DNA of 64,000 nt from an uncultured Bacteroidota bacterium (GTDB lineage: Bacteria > Bacteroidota > Bacteroidia > Flavobacteriales_D > Crocinitomicaceae). Below the pieces are notes generated by a model. It saw nothing but the letters and a program-made list of their open reading frames with translations. It did no database searches and was not told where the DNA came from. Position 1 is the first letter of the stretch; every line of letters starts with the position of its first letter. The DNA lies in the NCBI GenBank assembly GCA_937899625.1, contig CALCCB010000162.1:1-64000 (forward strand), given 5' to 3'. Both the position numbers and the translations under genes were made by a program. Below are positions 1 to 2,868 of this stretch, in pieces.

Positions 1-285
1 AAGTTAACAAACAATGCCGTTAAGGATCTATCTGATATTTGGAATTATACCTTCGATGCCTGGTCTGAAAGTCAAGCGGACAAATATTACAAGTTAATTC
101 TCAATGCATGCGCAGCAATCGCCAAGAAGCCACAGCAAGGAAAGGTGTATGAAGAAATTTACCCGGATCTGAAGGGTAAAAAAGCCTCAAAGCATATCAT
201 TTTCTATCGGATAATGGAAGATAAATCAATCGAGATTACGAGAATCCTACATGAGAGAATGGATTTGAAGAATAAATTGAAATAA
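1..285 (+). CDS. ParE/RelE-family toxin-like protein, 5' truncated by window edge
   Basis: Frame 1 reads KLTNNAVKDLSDIWNYTFDAWSESQADKYYKLILNACAAIAKKPQQGKVYEEIYPDLKGKKASKHIIFYRIMEDKSIEITRILHERMDLKNKLK*, typical of ParE toxins (DLxxIWxYT...ADxYYxxI...HIIFYR...IEITRILHERMD). Confidence 0.85.
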   Translation, partial: KLTNNAVKDLSDIWNYTFDAWSESQADKYYKLILNACAAIAKKPQQGKVYEEIYPDLKGKKASKHIIFYRIMEDKSIEITRILHERMDLKNKLK

Positions 286-293
286 GAAACCTC

Positions 294-424
294 ACATAAC
301 AGCAAGCAAGCGCCAGCCCAGATCCTACTTCTAAACAACAAATAGTTTTTAAAGATTAAGTTTTATCTTCGGTAAAACGATCTTGTGAAAAGTGGGCCGT
401 TCGCCTGCTTGCAAAACGTTAGCA
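294..424 (+). repeat. attC-like site 1
   Basis: ACATAAC (294-300); arm GCAAGCAAGCG (302-312) pairs with CGCCTGCTTGC (402-412) with one mismatch; R' box GTTAGCA (418-424). Confidence 0.7.
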
Positions 425-441
425 AACATTAAAAAGAAAAG

Positions 442-1929
442 ATGAAAAAGAAATCAGTTTCAATAATAATCACAATACTAACCATAGGATTAACAAGCTA
501 TGGGCAAGTGCAAATAGGTAATGATATTGATGGAGAAAATCCAGGAGACCTTTCAGGTCATTCAGTAGCCATTTCGGCTAATGGAAACATAGTAGCTATT
601 GGTGCTATTGAAAATAGTGACGGTGGAAGTAGGTCGGGTCATGTTAGGGTATATGAAAATGTAGACGGTACGTGGACACAAATAGGCGAAGATATTGCCG
701 GAGAGGCCGTGGACGATCGATCAGGATGGTCATTGGCAATATCCGCTGATGGTGGTATAGTTGCCATTGGTTCTGATTTAAATAATTCATGGAGGGGTCA
801 AGTGGAGGTGTATGAAAACATAGGAGGTACTTGGACACAAATAGGTGAAGATATTGAAGGCGAAAACTTTCAAGATATATCAGCAACAAGTATATCATTA
901 TCAAACGATGGGAGTATCATAGCCATTGGTGCACCACGTAGCGATGGTACTGCAAATAATTCTGGACATGTTAGAGTTTTTGAAAATTCGGGGGGATCAT
1001 GGATACAAATAGGTCAGGATATTGATGGGGTACAGGAACAAGGTCGACTAGGTAATTCGGTAGCACTAAATGGTGAAGGGAACATTATAGTTATTGGTGC
1101 CTCTCAAAATGACGAGAATGGCACAAATACTGGCGAGGTTAAAATCTACGAAAACCAGGATGGTACTTGGACTCAACTGGGCGGAGACATCAATGGTGTA
1201 GTCGAATTTGAGGATTCGGGTTCTGAAGTTGCGTTATCAGAAGATGGAAATATAGTGGCTATTAGTTCACCGAGTAGCAATGCTAATGGACTGCATTCAG
1301 GTCATGTACGAATTTTTGAATACCTGGGGAGCGTCTGGATACAAATAGGTGAAGATATAATTGGGGAAGCAAGTGAAGATTATTTTGGTTGGTCTATGGC
1401 GCTGTCCGCAAGCGGAAATATTATAGCCATTGGCTCGCTATGGAATGATAACAATGAAAGTGACGCAGGTAATGTTAGAATTTTTCAAAATCTAAGTGGA
1501 GTTTGGACACAAATAGGTGAGAGTATTAACGGAGAGGCTGCTAATGATAATTCAGGTTATTCGGTAGATATTTCGGCTGATGGAAGTATCGTGGCTATTG
1601 GTGCCAAAGCTAATGATGGAAATGGTGACTTTTCAGGACATGTAAGAGTGTTTGATATATCAACAGTTCTGTCAATTCCCACAATTGATTTAGAAACCAT
1701 AGTAAGTTTACATCCTAATCCATCAAAGGATGTCATAAAAATACATTTAGAGCAAGATCAGATGGAAAAAATAGAACTGTATAGTGTGACAGGTGGACTA
1801 ATTTTCAGAACGGTTTTGAATTCTAATACTTTCATTTTAAATACAGCCAATTATCCATCTGGAACCTATCTATTGAAAGTTTTTAGCCAAAATACTGGCT
1901 TCGTATATACAAAGTTTATAAAGGAATAA
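442..1929 (+). CDS. Secreted beta-propeller-like repeat protein with T9SS type A C-terminal sorting domain
   Basis: Signal peptide; seven ~56-aa repeats (IGEDIxGE...SGxSVAISADGxIVAIG...SGHVRVxEN..GTWTQ); C-terminal LHPNPSKDVIKI...SGTYLLKVFSQ...KFIKE sorting tail. Confidence 0.85.
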   Translation: MKKKSVSIIITILTIGLTSYGQVQIGNDIDGENPGDLSGHSVAISANGNIVAIGAIENSDGGSRSGHVRVYENVDGTWTQIGEDIAGEAVDDRSGWSLAISADGGIVAIGSDLNNSWRGQVEVYENIGGTWTQIGEDIEGENFQDISATSISLSNDGSIIAIGAPRSDGTANNSGHVRVFENSGGSWIQIGQDIDGVQEQGRLGNSVALNGEGNIIVIGASQNDENGTNTGEVKIYENQDGTWTQLGGDINGVVEFEDSGSEVALSEDGNIVAISSPSSNANGLHSGHVRIFEYLGSVWIQIGEDIIGEASEDYFGWSMALSASGNIIAIGSLWNDNNESDAGNVRIFQNLSGVWTQIGESINGEAANDNSGYSVDISADGSIVAIGAKANDGNGDFSGHVRVFDISTVLSIPTIDLETIVSLHPNPSKDVIKIHLEQDQMEKIELYSVTGGLIFRTVLNSNTFILNTANYPSGTYLLKVFSQNTGFVYTKFIKE

Positions 1930-1933
1930 CGTT

Positions 1934-2065
1934 CGCTAACTGCAGCTACAAAAAATTGGCGGTTCAGTGGTTAAATGAAGCTTTGTGTTCAGTACCAAGT
2001 TCAGTGGTGGCAGACAGTTTATTGCTTCGAAATCGCCAACTTCTTGTAGCTGCCGACCGTTATGC
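1934..2065 (+). repeat. attC-like site 2
   Basis: CGCTAAC (1934-1940); 20-bp arm GCAGCTACAAAAAATTGGCG (1942-1961) pairs with CGCCAACTTCTTGTAGCTGC (2034-2053) with 2 mismatches; R' box GTTATGC (2059-2065). Confidence 0.75.
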
Positions 2066-2074
2066 ATAGTAAGA

Positions 2075-2767
2075 ATGAAAAATAAATTGTATATAGTATT
2101 TGCCCTTTTTTTATGTTCAAAAGGATCGTTTAGTCAGGTCGATGAAGATAAATTTGGTACTTGGTACATGTATTTTTTTAATACTTCTTTGAAAGAAAGT
2201 TCCTGGGGATTTCAAGCTGATCTTCAATGTCGTAATTGGAATGCTTTGGGAGACCTTGAGCAATTACTTATTAGAGGCGGAGTAACTTATGAACCAAAAA
2301 AAGCAAAAATAAAGTTCACGCTAGGTTATGGAGACGTGACCACTGGCGCATATGGCCCTGAAAAATCTACAACTAGGGAAAGTCGCATCTATCAAGAGGC
2401 ATTATTTCCGTTGAAAATTGGCGAGCGATTTTACATGAATCATCGCGCACGCTATGAGCAAAGATTTGTTCAAAATCAGAAATTTAGAACTCGATACCGT
2501 TACAATTTGTTTTTAAACATCGCGCTAACGAACAAGGAATTGGTAAAGAACACCTTATACTTAGCATTGTATAATGAAATATTTATAAATGGTCAACGCA
2601 ATATCGGTAGTGGGAACACAGTAGAAATTTTTGATAGAAATAGACTGTATATTGCCTTAGGGTTTGTATTTATTGATCGCCTTAGATTGCAATTAGGGGT
2701 AATGAACCAAACGACTGATGGATGGAAAAAAAATCAGTTCCAAGTGAGTCTGCATCATCAGTTATAA
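2075..2767 (+). CDS. DUF2490 family protein
   Basis: Start moved from 1985 to 2075 (MKNKLYIVFALFLCSKGSFSQ signal peptide) because the upstream extension lies inside the attC-like repeat. DKFGTWYMYFFN...RNWNALGDLEQLLIRGGVTY...RARYEQRF...RYRYNLFLNIAL is DUF2490-like. Confidence 0.8.
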   Translation: MKNKLYIVFALFLCSKGSFSQVDEDKFGTWYMYFFNTSLKESSWGFQADLQCRNWNALGDLEQLLIRGGVTYEPKKAKIKFTLGYGDVTTGAYGPEKSTTRESRIYQEALFPLKIGERFYMNHRARYEQRFVQNQKFRTRYRYNLFLNIALTNKELVKNTLYLALYNEIFINGQRNIGSGNTVEIFDRNRLYIALGFVFIDRLRLQLGVMNQTTDGWKKNQFQVSLHHQL

Positions 2768-2774
2768 TGAATCT

Positions 2775-2868
2775 GCATAACAGTACCTATACTCCGTCGC
2801 AGTTTCATTTTCAGTGAATTCAATTATCTTTATTGATGCGGCGAGGGTATAGCCGCGGACCGTCAGCT
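2775..2868 (+). repeat. attC-like site 3 (terminal, degenerate R' box)
   Basis: GCATAAC (2775-2781); CTATACTCCGTCGCA (2787-2801) pairs imperfectly with TGCGGCGAGGGTATAG (2837-2852); terminal GTCAGC (2862-2867) in place of GTTRRRY. Confidence 0.6.

Follow-up and report, generated by a model that had tools for sequence, protein, structure and literature searches.

A hairpin inferred to be a cassette recombination site of an integron-like system in Bacteroidota that standard integron definitions would miss

Results

The distal end of a gene-cassette array at a contig edge

The stretch analysed here (the window) comprises 64,000 nucleotides at the start of contig C162 (CALCCB010000162.1) of a 2.9-Mb, 171-contig genome with Bacteroidota relatives (assembly GCA_937899625.1). 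Its first 2.9 kb hold a ParE-family toxin gene cut by the contig edge, an FG-GAP repeat protein gene and a DUF2490 gene, each followed by a hairpin-like site, after which an unrelated gene runs the other way (Table 1). The second of these three consecutive sites is the subject of this study.

Table 1. Features at the start of the window
Position	Strand	Feature	Basis
1..285	+	ParE-family toxin gene (cut by the contig start), cargo of cassette 1	Pfam ParE_toxin 6.8e-17; window base 1 is base 1 of contig C162
294..424	+	attC-like site 1, R'' ACATAAC, R' GTTAGCA, 131 nt	Scan score 37; covariance model R1 48.7 bits, E 7.6e-7 (one of the 36 training sequences)
418..2058	+	Cassette 2, from G^TT to G^TT; own R boxes GTTAGCA / CGCTAAC match 6 of 7	Sequence; box-matching test
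442..1929	+	Cassette 2 gene: FG-GAP_2 repeat protein with a type IX secretion sorting tail	Pfam FG-GAP_2 7.9e-27, Por_Secre_tail 5.3e-10
1934..2065	+	attC-like site 2; the bottom strand is the predicted substrate	Sequence; repeat finder; folding; scan score 47; covariance model R1 94.3 bits (training sequence)
1934..1940	+	Site 2, R''-like box CGCTAAC, followed by a 1-nt spacer	Sequence
1942..1961	+	Site 2, L'' arm GCAGCTACAAAAAATTGGCG	Sequence
1962..2033	+	Site 2, loop (72 nt)	Sequence
2034..2053	+	Site 2, L' arm CGCCAACTTCTTGTAGCTGC	Sequence
2054..2058	+	Site 2, spacer CGACC	Sequence
2059..2065	+	Site 2, R'-like box GTTATGC	Sequence
2059..2862	+	Cassette 3; own R boxes GTTATGC / GCATAAC match 7 of 7	Sequence
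2075..2767	+	Cassette 3 gene: DUF2490 protein, signal-peptide-like start	Pfam DUF2490 2.6e-44
2775..2868	+	attC-like site 3, degenerate, last site of the array: R'' GCATAAC, R' replaced by GTCAGCT, imperfect arms	Sequence; weak fold, z -2.29; not found by the scan or the covariance model

An earlier note, made from the sequence alone, had described site 2 as attC-like, with near-perfect 20-bp arms around a loop without a convincing ORF. This observation is confirmed. On the top strand 18 of 20 arm pairs are Watson-Crick; the other two are A.C, that is, G.T wobbles on the bottom strand, so that the bottom strand pairs 20/20. An independent repeat finder ranks the site as the best inverted repeat of the first 10 kb, and its bottom strand folds at -21.4 kcal/mol (z = -2.35 against dinucleotide shuffles). 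A scanner for AAC-stem-GTT sites recovers sites 1 and 2 and nothing else on the + strand of the window. In 200 simulated windows with the same dinucleotide make-up the highest score was 36, and none reached the 47 of site 2. The note was also right that the ORF start at 1985 is an artefact, since the DUF2490 gene starts at an ATG behind the site, and no T-tract is present on either side. Rfam gave no match in the window, and a search of the genome for DNA copies of site 2 found none by sequence; relatives are found only by structure.

Cassette boundaries and site structure

Do these sites delimit cassettes? If cassettes are cut at G^TT, the GTT box that starts a cassette should be the reverse complement of the AAC box that ends the same cassette, as is seen perfectly in cassette 3 of the window and nearly so in cassette 2. 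Over 42 neighbouring pairs in related arrays, own-cassette boxes match at 3.29 of 4 variable positions, with 29 perfect, against 1.53 in permutations (0 of 10,000 as high). In contrast, the two boxes of one site, which come from different cassettes, match at only 1.73. The longest ORF lies on the array strand in 27/28 cassettes (median ORF fraction 0.89) and in 26/28 in further arrays. Cassette 3 has no copy in 25 sister genomes, so that no cassette-level empty site could be shown for the window itself.

The related sites share the R''-L''-L'-R' layout of an imperfect palindrome, with spacers of 1-3 and 5-6 nt between R boxes and stem in most sites, and their stems covary (11/11 predicted pairs with changes on both sides). 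Our first scan scored A.C pairs favourably; because this could create a wobble bias, it was repeated with all mismatches scored alike, with the same result. This unbiased scan finds 39 sites in 152 kb downstream of recombinases and 3 in 206 kb upstream. Several recombinase loci (such as L071, L077, L083 and L093) had given no site in the first scan. Arm mismatches are A.C 100, C.A 1, T.G 6 and G.T 1, mostly 15 and 10 (or 12) nt after AAC. The bottom strand is the more stable one in 65/66 sites. Site 2 has no extrahelical bases, and 56 relatives carry 10 bulges in all, whereas 6/6 class 1 attC sites have extrahelical bases, which are described as common to all known attC sites and as the main strand selector (PMC2727003). 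We infer that the G.T wobbles take over that role. Site lengths cluster at 64-69, 129-136 and 194-198 nt, near multiples of about 65. On a Chryseobacterium plasmid (NZ_CP041688.1; locus L145, 17162-31941), near-identical site-like units of ~148 nt recur between cassettes, apparently cassettes with no gene, and a group II intron lies in the array.

A third tyrosine recombinase without the IntI-specific insert

Which enzyme could act on such sites? No protein of the genome passes the integron integrase (IntI) cut-off; the search returned only XerC, XerD and one more tyrosine recombinase of this kind, a 377-residue enzyme on contig C92. This candidate stays below the TIGR02249 cut-off of 265 (117 bits in one search, 202 in another), with profile positions 176-239 unmatched, but scores over that of NF040815 (229.7 against 220). 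It has a SAM-like domain and an XerA/IntI-type catalytic domain with the catalytic residues kept. The best fold match of the whole enzyme is V. cholerae IntI4, yet it lacks the ~41-residue IntI-specific insert: the spacing from R to HxxRH is 91-92 residues in the Bacteroidota array recombinases against 127-133 in 8 IntI. In the tree, IntI is one clade (100/100) and the Bacteroidota array recombinases another (98/92). The N-terminal domain is HARP-like (Pfam HARP, 4e-8), although Pfam finds HARP in only 3 of 18 such domains. Its predicted fold is nearest to the N-terminal, damage-recognition part of XPB and to the SMARCAL1 HARP domain, with weak E-values (0.01-0.1).

The C92 recombinase gene is followed within about 80 bp by an inverted repeat resembling attI, GTTATATGC and a leucine-rich-repeat gene that runs off the contig. 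A sister genome, G014, whose recombinase is 93% identical, is identical downstream of the gene up to ...CATATAAACTA^GTTATA, after which the two carry different cassettes. Two Chryseobacterium plasmids, the genomes G011 and G015, and the Flagellimonas and Arenibacter plasmids do the same, each at GTT. This divergence in four pairs of related platforms is the clearest sign of site-specific exchange at that point. In several sister genomes (loci L019-L024) a BRO/KilA-like gene, identified by eye and perhaps encoding an accessory factor, follows the recombinase instead of a cassette.

Distribution of the sites among Bacteroidota

A covariance model built on 36 sites (R1) matches 152 of 299 Bacteroidota genomes and 90 of 142 genera, but none of 8 genomes from outside the Bacteroidota and none of 12 IntI-bearing Gammaproteobacteria; its E-values are rough, and window sites 1 and 2 were in the training set. 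Genomes with a strong recombinase match carry sites in 81 of 91 cases, others in 71 of 208 (OR 15.6, p 1e-19); as these others still have sites, some arrays are orphaned or use other enzymes. One genome, G050, has 54 model matches but no strong HARP-type recombinase; there, a recombinase with a 437-residue frame on its contig C104 lies between two sites. Of the best-scoring sites, 51 lie within 50 kb of an array recombinase and all 51 point away from it, 34 downstream on the same strand and 17 upstream of a HARP-less, divergently transcribed enzyme. Two architectures thus share one kind of site.

In the genome of the window, the model has only three matches: sites 1 and 2, and one on contig C47. 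The earlier note had counted a lack of further copies of the fold in the genome towards refutation, and this condition fails. The C47 match belongs to a lone ParE-type cassette away from any array, between uvrA and a histidine kinase gene (locus L172, 2579-3019), suggesting ectopic insertion or a relic. Elsewhere, a cassette (locus L161, 7251-9797) encodes a TrlF-family ATPase related to the anti-phage protein Ppl, so arrays carry likely phage defence.

Discussion

Taken together, the data support with high confidence, though without a recombination assay, that site 2 is the attC-like recombination site at the 3' end of the FG-GAP cassette, in the distal part of a chromosomal cassette array. 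In this model, the single-stranded bottom strand folds into a hairpin whose R-box pair (GTT/AAC) and stem are bound by a Bacteroidota tyrosine recombinase, which cuts at G^TT and joins the strand either to another attC-like site, excising a circular cassette, or to the double-stranded attI-like palindrome beside its own gene, inserting one. The candidate enzyme is the C92 recombinase; as it lies on another contig and the array breaks at contig edges, their linkage is inferred. Bottom-strand catalysis, present-day activity and a role for the HARP-like domain (HARP domains recognise forked DNA in other proteins) are likewise inferred, and strand choice would be set by the conserved bottom-strand G.T wobbles and the asymmetric spacer instead of by extrahelical bases. 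The core reading of the earlier note, an attC-like cassette site cut at G^TT, is thus supported, with two corrections: the site is not a canonical attC, and its partner is very unlikely to be IntI1 or any IntI, so that the class 1 IntI1 assay proposed in that note would be the wrong decisive test.

Could the site nevertheless be a canonical attC of an ordinary integron or CALIN, served by an IntI-family integrase? The G^TT boundary, the RYYYAAC/GTTRRRY-like boxes, the co-oriented single-ORF cassettes and the IntI4 fold match are all compatible with this, but we consider it very unlikely, given that no match over the IntI cut-off was found in the genome, that the recombinase lacks the insert and lies outside the IntI clade, that the sites have almost no extrahelical bases, and that R1 finds nothing in the 12 IntI-bearing genomes. 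A transcription terminator or REP-like palindrome is less likely still. Site 2 does lie between two co-oriented genes, close to the stop codon of the first; however, it has a 72-nt loop and no T-tract, the stem sequence varies between sites while the flanks are fixed at AAC...GTT, the sites mark recombinase arrays and are nearly absent upstream, and neither own-cassette box matching nor breakpoints at GTT have a meaning for a terminator. Equally improbable is movement of dif/pdif-type modules by the host XerC and XerD. Both proteins are present, and pdif modules that carry toxin-antitoxin genes are known, but pdif sites are short 28-bp duplexes (PMC7530245), not 67-198-nt hairpins (site 2 itself spans 132 nt), and a third, array-linked recombinase co-occurs with the sites, all near sites being oriented away from it.

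That site 2 is a cassette site but a dead relic in this genome appears unlikely, although it remains possible. Site 3 has lost its R' box and the genome has few sites, so this array may be old, and the recombinase is not on the contig. On the other hand, the recombinase frame is open with its catalytic residues, the arms of site 2 are fully paired on the bottom strand, and the attI region is identical in G014, which has a different first cassette, so a cassette change happened recently.

More broadly, the Bacteroidota probably carry their own integron lineage, in which HARP-type (co-oriented) and HARP-less (divergent) recombinases without the IntI insert act on bulge-free hairpin sites marked by fixed G.T wobbles. 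This lineage would include gut rAID (recombinase-associated acquired interbacterial defence) arrays, would be a source of erm(F) and perhaps tet(X), and would explain why integron surveys found almost none in this phylum. If this reading is right, about half of the sampled Bacteroidota genomes carry cassette sites that such surveys would be expected to miss, because they look for IntI proteins and canonical attC structure. It would give rAID arrays a gene-acquisition mechanism and point to folded-strand cassette recombination without the IntI insert or extrahelical bases. We found no open-access paper describing this system, but with subscription papers outside the search and preprints hardly covered, prior description cannot be excluded.

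Relation to known systems

Like class 1 and sedentary chromosomal integrons, the system described here has arrays of single-ORF cassettes, each ending in a folded imperfect-palindrome site, a G^TT boundary with GTTRRRY/RYYYAAC-like boxes, an insertion site beside the recombinase, and toxin-antitoxin-type, resistance and defence cargo. It differs in that the recombinase lacks the insert that is called a defining characteristic of IntI (PMC9668308), in that the sites lack the extrahelical bases and carry fixed bottom-strand G.T wobbles, and in that, in the HARP type, the recombinase is upstream of and co-oriented with the array. The C92 enzyme belongs by score to XerA / NF040815 ('site-specific tyrosine recombinase/integron integrase'), but this family name does not imply cassette arrays, and the profile matches residues 103-365 only, leaving the HARP-like domain outside.

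On a mobilizable plasmid of Flagellimonas marinaquae (NZ_CP092416.1; locus L149, 10600-11896), a HARP-less array recombinase is followed by a complete first cassette, GTTATGCGG...CCGCATAAC, that holds erm(F), has own boxes matching 9/9 and ends in a 134-nt site with the A.C at +15; the next cassette holds a dihydrofolate-reductase-family gene. An Erm(F)-like gene is also a cassette in a complete genome, G339. In the 'xerD-tet(X)-res-ISCR2' resistance unit (PMC7530245), examined in Acinetobacter indicus p80-1-2-tetX3 (locus L146, 4940-7120), the 'xerD' is a 5'-truncated member of the HARP-type clade (97/81), followed by an attI-like palindrome, GTTATGTGC and tet(X3) in first-cassette position. 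This lead was only partly confirmed: just half a site follows tet(X3), and its R'' TACTAAC does not match R' GTTATGT, so the cassette is incomplete. The movement of this unit has been linked to ISCR2 (PMC7530245).

The rAID arrays of gut Bacteroidales likewise combine a tyrosine recombinase, co-oriented short genes and conserved intergenic motifs (PMC12247911). The recombinase of a rAID-like immunity-gene array on a Bacteroides ovatus plasmid (NZ_CP081918.1; locus L173, 5719-12798) nests among the HARP-type enzymes (94/86), and its cassettes obey the own-box rule, with boundary CC^ATTA (7.67 against 6.14 of 9; 0 of 5,000 shuffles). rAID sites are shorter, with R'' about 47 nt before the boundary, and have the boundary ATTA instead of GTTA. 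Their cargo is immunity genes, whereas that of the window is ParE, FG-GAP/T9SS and DUF2490; the relation between the two is by recombinase clade and cassette logic.
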